NCBI GenBank assembly: GCA_031291845.1
Contig: JARLIH010000025.1
Span: forward strand, 1-64,000
From: Isosphaeraceae bacterium
GTDB lineage: Bacteria > Planctomycetota > Planctomycetia > Isosphaerales > Isosphaeraceae
Direction: 5' to 3'
Length of the DNA stretch: 64,000 bases
The first letter of the stretch is position 1, and every line of letters starts with the position of its first letter. This document shows, one piece after another, positions 54,578-64,000 of the stretch. A program made the position numbers and the translations under genes. The notes below the pieces were generated by a model that saw only the letters and a list, made by a program, of their open reading frames with translations, searched no databases and was not told the DNA's origin.

Positions 54578-54719
54578 ACGATCGGTTCTCGGTTTCTCGG
54601 TCAAGCTTTGACGGAGACGGAACCGCTCTCATCCCGATCGTTGCGCCGCTCGCCTCGCCTTTGTCCACGCCTCGCTCTTGCTCCCCCCGCACTGATTCAC
54701 AACCCCGAGGATAGGCCCC

Positions 54720-55184
54720 ATGCATCGTCGACCGTTCATCGAGTTTGCGTCGATCCTGCCGGCCGGCCTGGCTGCGCTGCTATTGCTCACGTTCGCCGGC
54801 TGCGGCGAGGAGCAAGACGGGCAGCCGCGCGAGGCCGTATCAGGAACGGTGAGCCTCGATGGCCAGCCGCTTCCCGACGGGATGATCCAATGGATTCCCA
54901 GCACTGCTCGCGAAGGAAGCGTGGGTGGGGCGGCCGTCAAGGACGGCAAGTTCTCGATCGTGCGCCAGGAAGGCTTGGCCCCGGGCGCCTACCGGGTCGT
55001 GATCAACAGCGCCGCGGCGGGCGGTGCGACCGCACCCGCTCCCGACGAACCGCCCGGTTTGCTCAACGGGCCCAGTACGTCCAAAGACGTGATCCCTCCG
55101 CAGTACAACACGAAATCCACGCTCAAAGCCGAGATCAAAGCGGGCGTTCCCAACCTGTTCGATTTCTCCCTCAAGTCGAAGTAG
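54720..55184 (+). CDS. Carboxypeptidase-regulatory-like lipoprotein
   Basis: A 154-residue lipoprotein: signal peptide and lipobox ([20 protein letters not shown]), then a single transthyretin/carboxypeptidase-regulatory-like beta domain ([40 protein letters not shown]) and [20 protein letters not shown] near the end. Such lipoproteins are regularly found beside DUF1559 genes in planctomycetes, as here (the pseudopilin gene starts 135 bases downstream). Probably an outer-surface or periplasmic partner of the pseudopilin. Function unknown. Confidence 0.87.
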
Positions 55185-55318
55185 GGGCGCCGGCGGCCGT
55201 TCTGGTTTTCTTGTCGATCGATTTGCTCGGGCATCCGCGCGTTTCCTGCGGGCGCGGTCGCGGCAACGTCGATCATTCACCGCCCATTGATTCCGAACTT
55301 CTCGGAAAGGTTGAGAAC

Positions 55319-56293
55319 ATGATCCATGCCAAGCGGCGTGCCTTCACCCTGATCGAGCTCTTGGTGGTCATCGCCATCATCGCCGTTCTGATCGCCCTGC
55401 TGCTGCCCGCCGTCCAGGCCGCGCGCGAGGCGGCCCGGCGTGCGCAATGCGTGAACAACCTCAAGCAAATCGGCCTCGCCGTGATGAACTACGAGTCGAC
55501 GCACAACGCCTTGCCCCCTGGTACCAAGTTTCAGGTCTGGGGAACGTGGTGCATCTGGATCCTCCCCTACATGGAACAAGGCACGATCTACAACGCCTGG
55601 AACACGCTCGGCGACTACGGGCTCAGCGCGGCCGGCGGAGCCAGCACGCTGCGTTATACCGGGGCGTCGAACACGACGGTGACCACCTCCCTGGTCTCGA
55701 GCTACAATTGCCCGAGCGATACCCGGAGCGCTCCGCTTTACGGGATCCGTTCTTATAATTATGCGGCGAACTACGGTAACACCGCGATCACGACCGTGGC
55801 CGGTACCACCGCGCCGAAGACCTACACAGCGCCGGTGCAGACCTACAATGGCTTCACCTACGCGGGCGCCCCGTTCAACGATATCGTCGCCGGCGCCGTG
55901 ACCCTGGCCTCGGTCACCGACGGCCTGAGCAATACTCTCTATCATGCCGAGTGCGTCGAGGGCCAGGACGGCCCCGCCGGGCAGTACGACCTCCGCGGGT
56001 TCATCCACTGGTGGGAGGGCGCCTTCTTCGAAGCCTCGCTGACCCCGAACTCGTTGCTCCCGGACCAGATGTACGCGAGCTATTGCTACCCCAATTACCA
56101 GGGCAATCCCCCCTGCGTCGGGGCGACAAACCTCAATTACGTCCACGCCGCGCGGAGCCGTCACCCCGGCGGCCTCAACGCCTTGTTGGGCGACGGCAGC
56201 GTCCATTTCATCAAGAACTCCATCAATATCTACACGTGGCAAGCCCTCTCGACCACCAAGGGGAGCGAAGTCATCGACGCGAGCTCCTACTGA
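55319..56293 (+). CDS. DUF1559 pseudopilin-like protein (copy B)
   Basis: A 324-residue paralogue of the protein at 50517. Seen: [20 protein letters not shown] with the prepilin cleavage region, [40 protein letters not shown], and the C-terminal [20 protein letters not shown]. The ATG at 55319 has AAAGG upstream and places the signal at the very N-terminus; the open frame reaching back to 54608 overlaps the lipoprotein gene and is not used. Ser/Thr/Tyr-rich mid part. It ends the sigma-FecR-lipoprotein-pseudopilin row. Confidence 0.93.
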
Positions 56294-56729: not shown

Positions 56730-59700
56730 TCAAAGGTGCTCCTCCCGGGACGTCTCTTCCCGGCGATCCTTGACCATCAAGGAGTACAGGGCCGGGAGCA
56801 CGAACAGGGTTGCCGGCTCGCCGGCGAGCAGGCCGCCGAGGATCGCCCGGCCCAGGGGGGCGTTCGCCTCGCTGCCCCGGCCGAGCGCCAGCGCCATCGG
56901 CACCATCGCGAAAAAAGCCGCGAGGGCCGTCATCGTCACCGGGCGCACGCGGACCGCCGCGGCCTTGCGGATCGCTTCGGTGGGGGTCAGTCCCTCGTGC
57001 CACCGTAGTTCCTGAGCGTAGTCGGTCATCAATACGGTGTTGGATATCTTGATACCGACGATAAAGATGATCCCGAGGAGCGACTGAACGTTGAGCGCGG
57101 TGCCCGTGCAGAGGAGCATCGGCAGCACCCCGACCAGGCACAGCGGCACGGTCAGCATGACCGTGAGCGGAACGATGTACGACTTGTCGAGCGCGGCCAT
57201 CAGGAAGTACATCAGGACCGACGCCAGGGCGAGGCCAAAGCCGAGGCTGCGGAACGTCTCCTGCATCCGCGCGTACTCGCCGCTCAGCTCGATCATCGCC
57301 CCCTTCATCGGCTCGCGCTTCGAGCCGCTGCCGGTCGGGTCGTAGGGGAGCCACGACCCGTCGGGCTGGGGCGTGCCGAGACCACCAAGGACCTGGGCGA
57401 CGTCGGCGGCGACGTGGCCCAGGTCACGGCCTTGCACGCCCAGCGCGAGGTCCATCGTCGCTTGCAGGTTGTTGTGGGTGATCTCGGTCGGCACGGTGCC
57501 CCGGCGCAGCGTGGCGATGTTGCGCAAGGGGATCGGCTGGTCCTGCCTGGGGCTGGTGATCGGGACGTCCAGCAGCGTCTGGACGGAGTCGATGTCCTCC
57601 TCGAAATACTGGACGCCGACGAAGTACTGGTTCTTGCTGACCGGGTCGATCCAGAAGTTCTTCTTGTGGAACTGGATGCTGGAGTTGAGCGCGGCGACGA
57701 CGTTTTTCATCACATCGGCCTGGTTCAATCCGAGGTCGGCGGCCTTGGCACGGTCGACTTCGATGATGTACTCCGGGTAGTCGAGCCGCTGGACGATTCT
57801 GGCGTCGACCACCCCGTCGATCCGGGCGATCTGCCGGCGTGCGGCCTCAGCGACCGTGCGCGCCTTGACCGGGTCCTTGCCGGTGACCCGGACGTTGATC
57901 GGCGACGACTTGCCCTGGTTCATCGCGCCTCGGATCATGCCGCCGGCGTCGAAGGCGAACTCCAGGTCGGCGAACCGCGGGTCCGACGCGAACCCCGCAC
58001 GAAGGCGCTGCACCCACTGCTGCGCAGTGCGTTCCCGGTCGTGGATGAGCTGAACCCTGACCACGGCATCCATCGGCCCGGCGTTGGGGGTGTAAGCGGC
58101 CGACAGGTCGGCTACCACGCCGATCTCGGAGATGACCAGTTGCAGGTCGTGTCCGAGCGTCTTCTTGACGTACGCTTCGACCTGCTCGATCTTCTTCTCG
58201 GTCACCTCGATACGAGTGCCGCTCGGCGCCCTCGCGTAGACCTCGAATGCGCCGGCGTCGACCTCGGGGAAGAACTCCCGGCGGAGCCGCGGCCCGATCG
58301 TGACCAGGGTCGACACCATCAAGGCGACGGCCAGCCCCACGGTGAGCATGCGGTTCCGCAGCACGGCATCGAGCCCACGGACGTAGACGGCGATGCCCCG
58401 ATCGATGAGCGCCTCCCAGCCGGCGAAGGCGCGGGCCAGCCAACCACGGTGTTCGTCCGGGCCGACGTGGTCTGCGTGCGGCCGGAGCCAACGGGCGCTG
58501 CGGGAGGGTACGAAGGTCCGGGAGAGGAGATAGGCGGCGATCATCGCGAACGCCACGGCCATGGCCATGGGCCGGAACAAGAAGGCCCCCAGGCCGGGCA
58601 TGAACGCGAGCGGGGCGAGCACGAGGAACGTGCAGAGCGTCGAGACCAATTCGGGGAGCGCAACCTCGCTTGCCCCGAGGTAGGCCGCCTCCTCGGGACT
58701 CGCCCCCAGCCCGAGGTGGCGGTGGGTGTTTTCCAGGCAGATGATCGCGCTGTCGACCAGGGGGCCGATCGCCAGCGCCAGGCCGGCGAGGGTCATCACG
58801 TTCAGCGTGTTCCCCGTCGCATAAAGGCACGCGACCGCCGCCATCACGGAGATGGGGATGGTCATGACGGCGATGGCCGTCATGCGCCACTGGCCGAGGA
58901 ACACCAGGATGACCAGCGAGCAGAGCACCGCGCCGAGCACCCCTTCTTCGACCAGGCTCTCGATCGACCTGCGGACGTAGACCGACTGGTCCATCACGAG
59001 CTGGAGATTGATCCCCGAGCGGGTCAGCCGTGCCGTCATGATCTCGATCGAACTTTTGAGCGTTTCGACGACTTGCAAGGTGCTGGCGCCGAGCTGGCGG
59101 AAGACGGGGACGTAGACCTGGCGTCGACCGTTGACCCGCACGACGTTGGTCTGGATGTAGTTGGCATCTTTCGGCGTGCCGACGTCGCGGAGGTAGGCCG
59201 CGTTGCCGTGCTCGCTGCGGAGGGGGACGTCGCCCATGCTCGTGACGAGGTCGAACATCGAGTTCGAGTCGATCGCGTAGTCCGTGTCGCCGAACTTGGC
59301 GCTGCCGGTCGGGAGGAACACGTTGGAGTCGTCGATCGCCCTGAGGACGTCGAGCGGCGCGAGGTGGCGGGCCTGGAGCTTCTGACGATCGAGATAGACC
59401 ATCACCGCGCGGACCTTGCCGCCGTAGACGAGCGGGGCGAGCGCGCCCTTCTGCGACATGATCATCGGGCGCACCTCGTACCGCCCCGTGTCGTACAGCG
59501 CGCCCTCGTTCCAGCCCCCGCCGTCCGGGCCGCCGGACTGGCTGTCCAGGGCCATGAGGCAGACCGGCGTGCTGCTCGTCGGGTCGTACGGCAGGATGAC
59601 CGGCGGGAGCGTGCCCGGCGGCATGGTCGGGTACTCCCAGCCGGCCAGCGATGCGCACTCGGTCAGGGCGCCGCTCGGGTTGATGTGGCCGCCGAAGTAG

Positions 59701-59981
59701 TCGCGGACGATGCTGGCACCGACGATCGAGCGCGACTCCACCCGCTCGCCGCCCGACGCCTGCACCACCCCGCGCTCCATTCGCGAGGTGATGTTTTTCT
59801 CGATGCTCGCCGCGGGCATCCCGCCGTAAAAGGTCAAGACCTGGACGGCCGGACTTCGGAAGACCGGCAGGATGTCGACCGGGATGGCGTAGGCGGCCAG
59901 GCCGCCGAGAAGGGCGAGCGTGAGCGTCATCACCGTCACGGCAATGGGGTTGTGCAACGAGGCCCGGATCAAACCATTCAT
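56730..59981 (-). CDS. RND-family efflux permease (AcrB/HAE-type)
   Basis: A 1083-residue inner-membrane pump subunit. The ATG at 59981 begins MNGLIRASLHNPIAVTVMTL, the first RND helix; the frame runs back to 60392 inside the adaptor gene and is not used. Seen: FPEVDAGAFEVYARAPSGTR in the second half, TM4 with GPLVDSAIICLENTHRH (D410, but Ser where AcrB has its second Asp), and near TM10 GIKISNTVLMTDYAQ, where the AcrB lysine position is Ser. So the proton relay differs from AcrB. Paired with the adaptor gene 58 bases upstream; no TolC-type gene is in the window. Substrates cannot be predicted. Confidence 0.92.
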   Translation of the reverse strand: MNGLIRASLHNPIAVTVMTLTLALLGGLAAYAIPVDILPVFRSPAVQVLTFYGGMPAASIEKNITSRMERGVVQASGGERVESRSIVGASIVRDYFGGHINPSGALTECASLAGWEYPTMPPGTLPPVILPYDPTSSTPVCLMALDSQSGGPDGGGWNEGALYDTGRYEVRPMIMSQKGALAPLVYGGKVRAVMVYLDRQKLQARHLAPLDVLRAIDDSNVFLPTGSAKFGDTDYAIDSNSMFDLVTSMGDVPLRSEHGNAAYLRDVGTPKDANYIQTNVVRVNGRRQVYVPVFRQLGASTLQVVETLKSSIEIMTARLTRSGINLQLVMDQSVYVRRSIESLVEEGVLGAVLCSLVILVFLGQWRMTAIAVMTIPISVMAAVACLYATGNTLNVMTLAGLALAIGPLVDSAIICLENTHRHLGLGASPEEAAYLGASEVALPELVSTLCTFLVLAPLAFMPGLGAFLFRPMAMAVAFAMIAAYLLSRTFVPSRSARWLRPHADHVGPDEHRGWLARAFAGWEALIDRGIAVYVRGLDAVLRNRMLTVGLAVALMVSTLVTIGPRLRREFFPEVDAGAFEVYARAPSGTRIEVTEKKIEQVEAYVKKTLGHDLQLVISEIGVVADLSAAYTPNAGPMDAVVRVQLIHDRERTAQQWVQRLRAGFASDPRFADLEFAFDAGGMIRGAMNQGKSSPINVRVTGKDPVKARTVAEAARRQIARIDGVVDARIVQRLDYPEYIIEVDRAKAADLGLNQADVMKNVVAALNSSIQFHKKNFWIDPVSKNQYFVGVQYFEEDIDSVQTLLDVPITSPRQDQPIPLRNIATLRRGTVPTEITHNNLQATMDLALGVQGRDLGHVAADVAQVLGGLGTPQPDGSWLPYDPTGSGSKREPMKGAMIELSGEYARMQETFRSLGFGLALASVLMYFLMAALDKSYIVPLTVMLTVPLCLVGVLPMLLCTGTALNVQSLLGIIFIVGIKISNTVLMTDYAQELRWHEGLTPTEAIRKAAAVRVRPVTMTALAAFFAMVPMALALGRGSEANAPLGRAILGGLLAGEPATLFVLPALYSLMVKDRREETSREEHL

Positions 59982-60039: not shown

Positions 60040-61407
60040 TCATTTCGCGCGCTGGGCGATGACCGCCGTTCCGGGTTCCAGCGGGATGTTCGAACGCAGC
60101 ACGACCTGATCGTCCGGGGCGAGCCCTGACTCAACCTCGGCGAGCGTCCCGTTATCAGCACCGAGCACGACGTTGAACCGTTCGATTTTCCCCGCACGTA
60201 CCACGAGCACCGCGCCTCGGCCCTTCCCCGCGCGTTCGACGACGCACCCGACCGGGACCGTGAGCCGCTGAGAAGGGGGCTCGAGCTCGATGGTCGCGCG
60301 TCCGTACATCCCGTCGCGGAGGAGCCCGCCGGCGTTGGGCACGTCGACCTCGACCCGCATCGTCCGGGTCGTATGGTCTTCCGAGTTCGCAAGCCGCGCG
60401 ACGGTCCCGCGGAAGGAGCGCCCCTCGAGCCCGTCGATCGTCAAGACCACGGGATCGCCCGGGTCCGTCAACACCACGTCCCGGTCGGGAACGCGCACGA
60501 CGACGCGCACCAGGTCGGTCCGCGCGACCGTCAACAACGGAGACTGGCCGCCGTCCGTGGCCGAGCAGATGAAGGCGCCGGGGTGGAACGCGCGGTGGGT
60601 GACGACGCCGTCGAAAGGCGCGACCACCTGCGCGTACCGCAGGTCGACCCTGGCCTTCTCCAGGCGAGCCTCGGCCACGCCGACTGCCGCTTTCGCTTCG
60701 GCCACGTCCGCGCGGGCCTGCTCGACCTTCACCCCCGCGCCCGCCAGGCGCGTTTCGGCCGTCCGCACCGCCAGGCGGGCCGTCTTCTCCGCGGCGGTGG
60801 ACGACTCGAAGTCGCGCGCCTGCTCGTCGACCAGCCGCTTGTCGACGGCGTTCTGCTCGTACAGACTCTTCACGCGGCGATACTGCGCGTCCGCAAGCCT
60901 ACGGTTCGCGACGAGCCGCTCGATGTCGGCCTCGGTCTGCGCGACCGTCGCTGCGGCCGTTTCCCGGTCGGCCTCCGCCGCCTTGACCAGGGCCTCCGCC
61001 TGCACGGCCCGGGCGCTCGACTGGGCCAGCAGCGCAGCGGACTCCGCGACCGCCGCCACCTCCCGAGGCGCGTCGATCGCGGCCAGGACTTGCCCCTTCT
61101 TCACGCGTGAGCCGATGTCCACTTCCTGCGATTTCAGATAGCCCGACACCATGGCGTAGAGATCGACCGACTCGAAGGCATGGACCGACCCGGGCTGCAC
61201 CGTCACACGCTCGATTCCGCCCACCCTGGGGACGACCACATCCACGCGTGGAGTTATCGCATCGGCCTGAGAGGGCGCCGGGACGGCCTCTTTGTTTTCG
61301 CGCGCCCGGGCGCCGCGGCCGGCGAGGCGGAACGCAAAGGCAAGCAAGGCGATGACGCACAGCACGACGGCCGTGTGCCACCGGCTGCGGACGAACCAGT
61401 TCTTCAT
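60040..61407 (-). CDS. RND efflux periplasmic adaptor (membrane fusion protein)
   Basis: A 455-residue HlyD/AcrA-type adaptor. Seen: an N-terminal membrane anchor (WHTAVVLCVIALLAFAFRLA), a first barrel-sandwich half (LYAMVSGYLKSQEVDIGSRV, KKGQVLAAIDAP), a long Ala/Glu-rich coiled coil (about 115-250), the second lipoyl half (YAQVVAPFDGVVTHRAFHPG) and the beta-barrel (SEDHTTRTMRVEVDVPNAGG, LLRDGMYGRATIEL). It links the permease to an outer-membrane channel. First gene of the minus-strand operon, divergent from the response-regulator gene. Confidence 0.93.
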   Translation of the reverse strand: MKNWFVRSRWHTAVVLCVIALLAFAFRLAGRGARARENKEAVPAPSQADAITPRVDVVVPRVGGIERVTVQPGSVHAFESVDLYAMVSGYLKSQEVDIGSRVKKGQVLAAIDAPREVAAVAESAALLAQSSARAVQAEALVKAAEADRETAAATVAQTEADIERLVANRRLADAQYRRVKSLYEQNAVDKRLVDEQARDFESSTAAEKTARLAVRTAETRLAGAGVKVEQARADVAEAKAAVGVAEARLEKARVDLRYAQVVAPFDGVVTHRAFHPGAFICSATDGGQSPLLTVARTDLVRVVVRVPDRDVVLTDPGDPVVLTIDGLEGRSFRGTVARLANSEDHTTRTMRVEVDVPNAGGLLRDGMYGRATIELEPPSQRLTVPVGCVVERAGKGRGAVLVVRAGKIERFNVVLGADNGTLAEVESGLAPDDQVVLRSNIPLEPGTAVIAQRAK

Positions 61408-61612
61408 CTTCCAGGATCCTCGCGGCCGGAACGGACCTCGAAATGGCGTGGTTCAAAACGTGGGAGCTTCGGTTTGTGGGAGTGCCGGGGAAAACGCCCT
61501 ACTCCCCAATGCGACCCGCCCTGGAACCCCGCCCTCGAAATCGAAGCGCAGAGGACACAAATGGAGCTGCGGCCGACCGTCTAGCCCCCAAAGTCGCCGG
61601 CCCGGGGCATCA

Positions 61613-61698
61613 GAACGATTGCAAAGTCGCATCGCGAGGGTCTTCCACACGTTAGGTGGCACGCCGGTCGGTCCTCGGCCGACTTTTTGCAATCGTCC
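61613..61698. repeat. Inverted repeat flanked by a direct repeat
   Basis: GAACGATTGCAAAGTCG (61613-61629) is inverted at 61680-61698, with two extra bases in the A-run. The direct repeat CCCGGGGCATC lies to the left of each arm or just beyond it, at 61601-61611 and 61701-61711, exactly 100 bases apart. It lies in the 460-base divergent region between the RND and regulator operons. Confidence 0.6.
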
Positions 61699-61723
61699 TG
61701 CCCGGGGCATCCTAAGCGCTGGC

Positions 61724-61763
61724 GGTAAGGCCTTGGTAAGCCAGGGGTAAAATCCACCTTACC
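61724..61763. promoter_or_regulatory. Putative response-regulator box: 11-bp spaced GGTAA(G/A) repeats
   Basis: GGTAAG at 61724-61729, GGTAAG at 61735-61740 and GGTAAA at 61746-61751 are spaced exactly 11 bp start to start, with CTTACC in the opposite sense at 61758-61763. On the minus strand this reads TTTACC-N5-CTTACC-N5-CTTACC. Such 11-bp direct repeats are typical of OmpR/PhoB-family sites (PhoB, PmrA). The site is about 105 bases before the regulator start and could serve the RND operon on the other side as well. Confidence 0.6.
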
Positions 61764-61867: not shown

Positions 61868-62572
61868 ATGGGCATTCGGGTTCTCATGATCGAGGACGAG
61901 GCAAACATTGCCGATTACCTCGTGCGCGGCCTGCGCGAGGAGGGCTTTGCCGTCGAGCACGTCGCCGACGGCATCGCCGCGGCCCATGCGCTACGGGGCG
62001 GGGGCTGGGACCTCGTCTTGCTCGACTGGTGGCTCCCCGGCCTGGACGGCCTGTCGCTGCTCCGCCGGTTTCGCGAGCGGGACCGCCAGACGCCCGTGCT
62101 CTTTCTGACGGCGCGCGACCAGGTCGCCAACCGGGTGCTGGGGCTCGACAGCGGGGCCGACGACTATTTGTGCAAGCCCTTCGACTTCGAGGAGCTGCTG
62201 GCACGGATGCGGGTGCTGATCCGCCGCCGGGACGGCAGCGCGGGTGCGCTCCTGGCGCACGGCGACGTGGTCGTGGACATGGCCGCTCAGCGGGCGGAGC
62301 GGGCCGGGCGGGCCCTGGACTTGACCGCCAAGGAGCTGGCCCTGCTGGTCTACATGATGCGGCATGCCGGACGGGTGCTGTCCCGGACCCGGATCTTCGA
62401 GCACGTCTGGGGCGAACGCCCGGATGGCCCCACGAAGACCCTGGAGGTCCACGTGATGGAGCTGCGCAGGAAGCTGGAAGCCTCCTCCAGGCCGCGGCTG
62501 ATCCACACCCTGCGCGGCCGGGGCTATCTCTTCGGCGCGCCGCCCGAGACGGCCGAGAGGGGGGAGCCATGA
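61868..62572 (+). CDS. OmpR/PhoB-family response regulator
   Basis: A 234-residue regulator: receiver domain (1-120) with the acidic pair in IEDE, phosphoacceptor D53 in LVLLDWWLPGLDG and K103 in YLCKPFDFEE, then a winged-helix DNA-binding domain (LDLTAKELALLVYMMRHAGR, VHVMELRRKLEASSRPRLIH, TLRGRGYLFG). The Trp-Trp after D53 replaces the usual hydrophobic-Met/Leu pair. The ATG at 61868 has GGGGGAG upstream; the frame runs back to 61802. Its TGA overlaps the sensor-kinase ATG (62569-62572). Likely control of the divergent RND operon. Confidence 0.93.
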   Translation: MGIRVLMIEDEANIADYLVRGLREEGFAVEHVADGIAAAHALRGGGWDLVLLDWWLPGLDGLSLLRRFRERDRQTPVLFLTARDQVANRVLGLDSGADDYLCKPFDFEELLARMRVLIRRRDGSAGALLAHGDVVVDMAAQRAERAGRALDLTAKELALLVYMMRHAGRVLSRTRIFEHVWGERPDGPTKTLEVHVMELRRKLEASSRPRLIHTLRGRGYLFGAPPETAERGEP

Positions 62573-64000
62573 GCCTGGCCACGCGCCTCTCGGCGTTCTT
62601 CCTGCTCGCCCTGGCGCTGGTGCTCGCGGGGTTCTCGGTGTCGCTCTACCTGCTGACGCGGACCTACCTGGTCCGCCAGCACGAGGAACGCCTGGAGCTT
62701 GCGCTCGACACGTTGGAGGCGTCGGTCGACATCGAGCCGGGGGGACTCGAGTGGGAGCCGCGCGATCGCCGCATTACGCTGGGGACGGAGCCGGGCACCG
62801 ACGCGGTGCGCTGGGCCGTCCGCGACGCCCGAGGCGCGATGGTGGACCGGTCGGCGAACTCCCGGCCCGCCGATTTCCCGGCCGGCTGGGCGCCCGCGGC
62901 GTGGCCGGGCGAACCGGACGGGACGGCCTTTGGCCGCGTTCCCGGCTGGCGGCTGGCGAGCCGGTTCCTCCGGCTCGACGAGCTGCTGCGCCAGGGACGC
63001 GGGCACCCGGACGACGAGCCGGGATACGAGGTCCAGTATCCTGCGCTGGTGCTGGTCGTCGGGCTGTCGCCGGCGCCGATGGAAGCCGCGCTCGGCCGGC
63101 TGCGCTGGACCTTGGCCTTACTGTCGTTCGGCATCTGGGCGGCCGCGGCGACGTTCGGCAGTTGGCTCTCCCGGCGCGCCCTGGCGCCGGTAAGCCGCAT
63201 GGCCCGCGCGGCGAAGGACATGACCGCGGCCGACCTGGGACAGAGGCTGCCGGTGCCCGGCACGGGTGACGAGCTGGACGAGGTGGGACACGCGTTCAAC
63301 GACCTCCTCGGCCGCCTCCACGATGCATTTGCCCGCCTGCACGAGGGGTACGAACGGCAGCGGCGGTTCGCGGGCGACGCGTCGCACCAGCTTCGGACAC
63401 CCCTGGCCGCGCTGCTGGGACAGGTGCAGGTCGCGCTCCGGCGCGAGCGGCCGGCCGACGAATACCGGCGCACCCTCGAGCTGGTCCGTGCGGAAGGCGA
63501 GCGGCTGCGCCAGATCGTGGAGTCGCTGCTGTTCCTGGCCCACCCCGAGCGCGAGTCCGCGCTGCCCGCGGCGCTCGACCTCACGGCGTGGCTCCCCGAT
63601 CACCTCGAGCGCTGGTCCACCCACCCGCGGGCCGACGACCTGCACGTCGAGATCGACTCCCGCGCGCCGCGCGCCGTGCAGGTCCACACCCCCTTGCTCG
63701 CCCAGGTCCTGGACAACCTCTGGGAAAACGCCTGCAAGTACAGCGTTCCGGGCACTCCGATCACCGTCCGGCTGTGGCAAGACGAGGGGTCGGTGGCCGT
63801 GGGGGTCGAGGACCGAGGGCACGGCCTCGCCGCCGAAGACGCCGCCCGGGTCTTTGAGCCGTTCTTCCGCACCGAGCAGGCGCGCCTCGAGGGGCAGCCC
63901 GGCGTCGGGCTGGGCCTGGCGGTGGCCCAGCGCATCGCGGCGACGTTCGGCGGTTCGATCGAGGTGCGGAGCCAGCCCGGCGTCGGCAGCCACTTCATCC
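62569..64000 (+). CDS. Sensor histidine kinase, 3' end beyond the window
   Basis: Open to the last base, so the C-terminus is missing, probably only a few residues. At least 477 residues. Seen: TM1 (about 8-28: FFLLALALVLAGFSVSLYLL), a periplasmic sensor region (about 35-170), TM2 (about 180-205: WTLALLSFGIWAAAATFG), HAMP, HisKA with H273 in AGDASHQLRTPLAA, and HATPase (VLDNLWENACKYS, VEDRGHGLAAEDA, GVGLGLAVAQRIAATFGGSI). The layout fits CusS/QseC-type kinases. ATGA-coupled to the response regulator. The signal is unknown; the context suggests a compound expelled by the RND pump. Confidence 0.92.
   Translation, partial: MSLATRLSAFFLLALALVLAGFSVSLYLLTRTYLVRQHEERLELALDTLEASVDIEPGGLEWEPRDRRITLGTEPGTDAVRWAVRDARGAMVDRSANSRPADFPAGWAPAAWPGEPDGTAFGRVPGWRLASRFLRLDELLRQGRGHPDDEPGYEVQYPALVLVVGLSPAPMEAALGRLRWTLALLSFGIWAAAATFGSWLSRRALAPVSRMARAAKDMTAADLGQRLPVPGTGDELDEVGHAFNDLLGRLHDAFARLHEGYERQRRFAGDASHQLRTPLAALLGQVQVALRRERPADEYRRTLELVRAEGERLRQIVESLLFLAHPERESALPAALDLTAWLPDHLERWSTHPRADDLHVEIDSRAPRAVQVHTPLLAQVLDNLWENACKYSVPGTPITVRLWQDEGSVAVGVEDRGHGLAAEDAARVFEPFFRTEQARLEGQPGVGLGLAVAQRIAATFGGSIEVRSQPGVGSHFI

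Follow-up and report, generated by a model that had tools for sequence, protein, structure and literature searches.

Results

An 11-bp array between a response regulator gene and a divergent RND pump

Three GGTAA(G/A) boxes lie between the genes of a two-component system and those of a divergent RND pump in an Isosphaeraceae bacterium, which raises the question of which protein would bind them and which of the two operons they would control. The locus was analysed in a window of 64,000 nucleotides, i.e. the whole stretch of DNA under study, and its features are collected in Table 1. The start-to-start step between the three boxes, read directly, is exactly 11 bp, twice; the boxes had been predicted at this spacing before the response regulator, in agreement with the sequence and the coordinates. 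On the minus strand they follow each other in the order TTTACC-CTTACC-CTTACC, which directs the array at the pump. The array starts at 61724 and lies upstream of both genes, with 116 nt between it and the ATG start codon of the response regulator (61868) and 316 nt between it and that of the adaptor (61407, minus strand). When up to 2 mismatches were allowed, this array was the single exact match to the three-box pattern in the 9.7-Mb genome, and two matches were found at 2 mismatches, which is not above the reversed-pattern control. The two-box pattern, with 1 mismatch permitted, gave 3 matches in the window vs 0.37 expected.

Table 1. Coordinates of the array, of the neighbouring genes and of the adjacent repeat in the window.
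Feature	Position	Strand	Basis
Half-site 1 in reading order, TTTACC on minus (GGTAAA on plus)	61746..61751	-	sequence
Half-site 2, CTTACC on minus (GGTAAG on plus)	61735..61740	-	sequence
Half-site 3, CTTACC on minus (GGTAAG on plus), closest to the pump	61724..61729	-	sequence
Inverted fourth box, CTTACC, facing the regulator gene	61758..61763	+	sequence
Predicted pump-promoter -10 hexamer, TAGGAT (61714-61709 in minus reading)	61709..61714	-	TAnnnT at offset 9
OmpR/PhoB-type response regulator, Response_reg + Trans_reg_C, 234 aa	61868..62572	+	Pfam
Sensor histidine kinase, HAMP + HisKA + HATPase_c	62569..64000	+	Pfam
RND periplasmic adaptor, first gene of the divergent pump operon	60040..61407	-	Pfam HlyD_D23/HlyD_3
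RND efflux transporter (ACR_tran), downstream of the adaptor	56730..59978	-	Pfam 585 bits
Dispersed MITE-like repeat, 88 bp, imperfect inverted ends AGAACGATTGCAAA/TTTGCAATCGTCCT	61612-61699		
Perfect 12-bp flanking duplication GCCCGGGGCATC	61600-61611 and 61700-61711		

The site was also correctly placed by the original prediction between the regulator operon and the divergent RND pump, with positions that agree and domains confirmed by Pfam. The histidine kinase gene overlaps the regulator gene by ATGA and extends past the window end, while the adaptor scores above the NCBIfam TIGR01730 cut-off. The response regulator is 69-71% identical to its orthologs, and the orthologs of the RND transporter are 71-73% identical with the same gene order. 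Two features of a tandem operator are found here: repeats in direct orientation at a step of one helical turn (10-11 bp), in the window and in three orthologous loci, and a neighbouring gene for a Trans_reg_C winged-helix response regulator (PF00486 + PF00072). This regulator is the presumed array-binding protein, in a genome with 48 matches to its protein family, and the divergent adaptor-pump operon is the predicted target. The product of the gene next downstream of the pump (54608-56293) has a type IV pilin-like methylation signature, which we take to be typical of planctomycete DUF1559 proteins.

A predicted -10 hexamer in the pump direction

The hexamer TAGGAT, absent from the original prediction, stands 9 nt past half-site 3, towards the pump, and is a weak match to TATAAT. 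In the orthologous loci described below, -10-like hexamers are found past the array at 10 nt (TAAGAT, in both Singulisphaera loci) and at 20 nt (TACAAT, in genome G024), the latter being 9 nt after a fourth box. The four arrays facing a pump and four others facing a regulator gene, i.e. all eight inspected, have TAnnnT at 9, 10 or 20 nt. No -35-like hexamer was present in the predicted pump promoter, and a consensus scan found no consensus sigma-70 promoter in either the pump or the regulator direction. In the window, no TAnnnT stands at a matching distance in the direction of the regulator.

An inverted box was overlooked in the original prediction, although it falls within the stretch concerned. 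The sequence GTAAAnTCCACCTTACC (61747-61763) joins the last box to this inverted box; it is common to the window and both Singulisphaera loci, thus to two genera, and G024 is without it. Among 45 family genomes, exact GTAAAnTCCACCTTACC occurs at only three places, all in these divergent intergenic regions. No difference in the inverted box or its flank (TCCACCTTACC) is seen among 3 of the 4 divergent loci; G024 is without the inverted box.

The predicted -10 is followed closely by the 88-bp repeat, which would therefore be transcribed in the pump leader. The repeat has 48 listed matches in the genome, at about 40 distinct places, and another copy (L219) is flanked by a diverged 12-bp repeat. 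Its absence from the orthologous intergenic regions makes it probable that a small mobile element has inserted into the pump leader, leaving the operator and the -10 undamaged.

The array is conserved in orthologous divergent loci

Homologs of the regulator and of the adaptor were sought in relatives. Three more genomes show the divergent regulator-kinase / adaptor-transporter order: Singulisphaera acidiphila DSM 18658 (L069; NC_019892.1, at about 2.60 Mb), Singulisphaera sp. GP187 (L070) and G024 (L071), the last from another genus than Singulisphaera. There are thus four orthologous divergent loci in total, two of them of one genus, which amounts to three independent lineages. In one more genome (G059), the regulator and pump halves are 2.1 kb apart. 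Scans of 398 genomes of the class and of the public genome collection added only two adaptors of comparable closeness (L072 and L073), neither with an adjacent regulator.

At the equivalent place, boxes in 11-bp steps are present as GGTTAG/AATTAA/AGTAAA in S. acidiphila, GATAAG/AATTAA/AGTAAA in GP187 and GGTTAG/GGTTAA/GCTAAA in G024, where a fourth box, GGAAAG, stands one 11-bp step further. The counterparts in S. acidiphila, GP187 and G024 are, respectively, AGTAAA, AGTAAA and GCTAAA for half-site 1 (GGTAAA), AATTAA, AATTAA and GGTTAA for half-site 2 (GGTAAG), and GGTTAG, GATAAG and GGTTAG for half-site 3 (GGTAAG). The box sequences have drifted between the loci, and the position and the 11-bp step are kept.

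In a leave-one-out scan, the half-site matrix was built without the locus tested, both Singulisphaera loci being omitted together. The best 11-bp triplet was the orthologous array in 4/4 intergenic regions. Shuffled sequences scored at least as high as the observed one in 0/2000 cases for the window, 2/2000 for S. acidiphila, 34/2000 for GP187 and 0/2000 for G024. Among spacings of 7-18, none outscored 11 in any of the four loci, the closest competitors being 9 in S. acidiphila and 13 in GP187. The original prediction had asked for conservation of the 11-bp array ahead of orthologous pairs; this check was run, and the array is conserved in 3/3 other divergent loci.

Four related regulators carry arrays directed at their own genes

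Arrays with an 11-bp step that are directed at the regulator's own start were found for four relatives not among the orthologs (L012, L017, L018 and L026). They are followed by the -10-like hexamers TAAAGT at 20 nt, TATGAT at 20 nt, TATGAT at 10 nt and TAAAAT at 9 nt, respectively. These arrays suggest autoregulation with the same geometry.

The upstream regions of 47 paralogous regulators, unused in the matrix, served as the control set, and the best triplet was taken for each spacing from 7 to 18. The mean score was highest at spacing 11 (0.08 vs -1.2 to -2.7 elsewhere). Among the triplets scoring above zero, TAnnnT was found at 9/10/20/21 nt in 7 of 22 at spacing 11 vs 1 of 164 at all other spacings combined (Fisher p 9e-7). 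The offsets had first been spotted by eye, before testing, in the orthologs and two of the paralogs; the value of 5e-5, obtained without these two paralogs, is therefore the fairer figure. A clear array is absent from most of the 47 related regulators.

Genome scans and pump homologs

In a scan of 45 family genomes, the window was recovered at 0 mismatches and its G024 ortholog at 1, or at 3 with the -10 added. These two were the only matches with the response regulator, histidine kinase and adaptor genes beside them; of the other matches, a kinase-like stretch lay close to one and a distant pump gene to another. The relaxed three-box pattern gave 24 matches in the 45 genomes vs 41 for the reversed control, and 7 vs 24 when the -10 was added. 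Since the reversed controls matched at least as often as the relaxed patterns, we do not claim a wider regulon.

Where a pump homolog has no divergent regulator beside it (L072, L074-L080 and L082), no convincing array was found. At L073 (G029), which also has no such regulator next door, a possible array GTTAAC/TTAATC/CTAATG with TACTAT at 19 nt lies ~228 nt upstream of the adaptor.

Comparison with known regulators and operators

The PhoP box of Salmonella is the direct repeat (T/G)GTTTA-N5-(T/G)GTTTA, with a distance to the -10 of 12 nt (in one case 11) or 21-23 nt in architectures I and III (PMC3335776). The array resembles it by its hexamer direct repeat with a 5-bp spacer, its direct orientation towards the -10 and the lack of a recognised -35 box. 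From the TTTA core to the -10, the four pump promoters have 11, 12, 12 and 22 nt, in line with the distances of PhoP architectures I and III. However, PhoP has two half-sites and the array three (four in G024), the phylum differs and binding is here predicted. The boxes, TTTACC/CTTACC/CTAACC/TTAATT, do not match (T/G)GTTTA and are of the type YTTACC/YTAACC; as the hexamers differ, the array is not a PhoP box and would be only PhoP-like in its working.

The PmrA (BasR) box, CTTAAT-N5-CCTAAG, is read head to tail (PMC3973317) and has in common with the array a CTTA-type hexamer and the 11-bp head-to-tail step, whereas the last bases of the hexamer are not the same. When the array was compared with CTTAAG/NTTAAT separated by 5 bp, the spacer agreed and CTTACC was two positions off CTTAAG. 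Over its full length, the regulator is related to OmpR-family proteins of solved structure, BasR/PmrA included (E 1e-40, PDB 4s04 and 8jo2). It scores 187.5 bits vs the NCBIfam PmrA cut-off of 330. The TLEVH motif of its recognition helix is presumably common with PmrA, to which the regulator would be only 38% identical; we treat this motif as a lead only. By its sequence, the promoter appears PhoP/PmrA-like in its working, yet it is a member of neither regulon type.

The best NCBIfam subfamilies are that of CopR/CusR/CzcR (TIGR01387) for the regulator and TIGR01386 for the kinase. Both proteins fall below the curated cut-offs, the regulator with 214.5 vs 279.2 bits for the CzcR/SilR/CopR heavy-metal regulators and the kinase with 241 vs 293 bits. 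A metal pump is not indicated, because the pump scores 319 vs 701 for CusA/CzcA. An ordinary heavy-metal (Cus/Czc) system is ruled out by these cut-offs. In SmeSyRy/SmeYZ of Stenotrophomonas maltophilia, two-component genes are divergent from an RND pump operon, as here, and affect its expression (PMC4981351); the organism is unrelated, and the likeness concerns the gene arrangement.

Discussion

On the sequence data, the array is likely to serve an OmpR/PhoB-type regulator as a tandem operator. The best candidate for this regulator is the adjacent one, which would activate the pump promoter by replacing its -35 box. The original prediction of tandem sites of this type is supported by the conservation of the array in orthologs and by the prominence of spacing 11 in 47 related regulators. 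Once phosphorylated, the regulator would occupy one face of the DNA in head-to-tail order, with a single molecule per YTTACC/YTAACC-type hexamer, the hexamer and 5 bp making up the 11 bp of each step. The bound regulator would then take the place of the absent -35 box and bring RNA polymerase to the -10 hexamer 9-10 nt (or one more turn) past the last half-site, and the divergent adaptor-pump operon would be switched on. We infer the identity of the binding protein, the activation, the transcription start and the signal. Pump relatives with no neighbouring regulator are mostly without an array, which we counted against this reading.

The array had been proposed to control both operons. The pump part of this proposal is supported by the orientation of the array and the placement of the -10; in the regulator direction, no promoter element was found at a matching distance. 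A shared operator, in which the triplet activates the pump and the regulator gene is repressed or activated through the inverted box or by that same complex, is a real possibility to which we nevertheless give somewhat less than an even chance. The inverted box with its flank, identical in 3/4 loci, speaks for it, and the four related arrays that face their own genes suggest that autoregulation occurs in the group. Against it are the lack of TAnnnT at a matching distance in the regulator direction of the window, the absence of the inverted box from G024 and a regulator promoter that the consensus scan did not find. With an inverted box conserved in 3/4 loci and the -10-like hexamer missing, control of the regulator's own gene by the array is weakly suggested.

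As the genome carries tens of members of this regulator family, the partner of the array could be another regulator. We consider it unlikely that the array is bound by a different OmpR-family regulator of the genome or by an unrelated pump repressor. The inverted pair GGTAAA...CTTACC could suit a dimeric repressor. However, the array co-occurs with this regulator in four divergent loci, paralogs of the regulator show the same layout, and the 11-bp step is a known head-to-tail signature of the OmpR/PhoB type (PMC3335776, PMC3973317). That the boxes are chance repeats, or a functionless remnant of the dispersed repeat inserted alongside, is very improbable. The probably mobile repeat does adjoin the array, but the array lies outside it and is present in three loci without it, and shuffles do not account for it; cross-genus conservation is the main point refuting this reading.

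The array is thus a well-supported new example, in a planctomycete, of a known type of genetic switch, and a likely inducer circuit for the RND pump. No description of the operator of a two-component regulator in this planctomycete family was found in the open-access literature searched, and dozens of such regulators are encoded in these genomes. The chances seem to us evenly balanced that planctomycetes of the family share a PhoP-like activator layout, in which three to four 11-bp-phased YTTACC-like half-sites replace the -35 one or two turns before the -10. This layout would serve the regulator-adjacent pump and the genes of related regulators, its geometry being held while the box sequence drifts. 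The conserved box, spacing and -10 geometry give a promoter model open to direct testing, and the array geometry offers a means of pairing regulators with their targets in poorly studied genomes. The findings suggest that, from one phylum to another, OmpR/PhoB-type activators keep their geometry relative to RNA polymerase but read different sequences.
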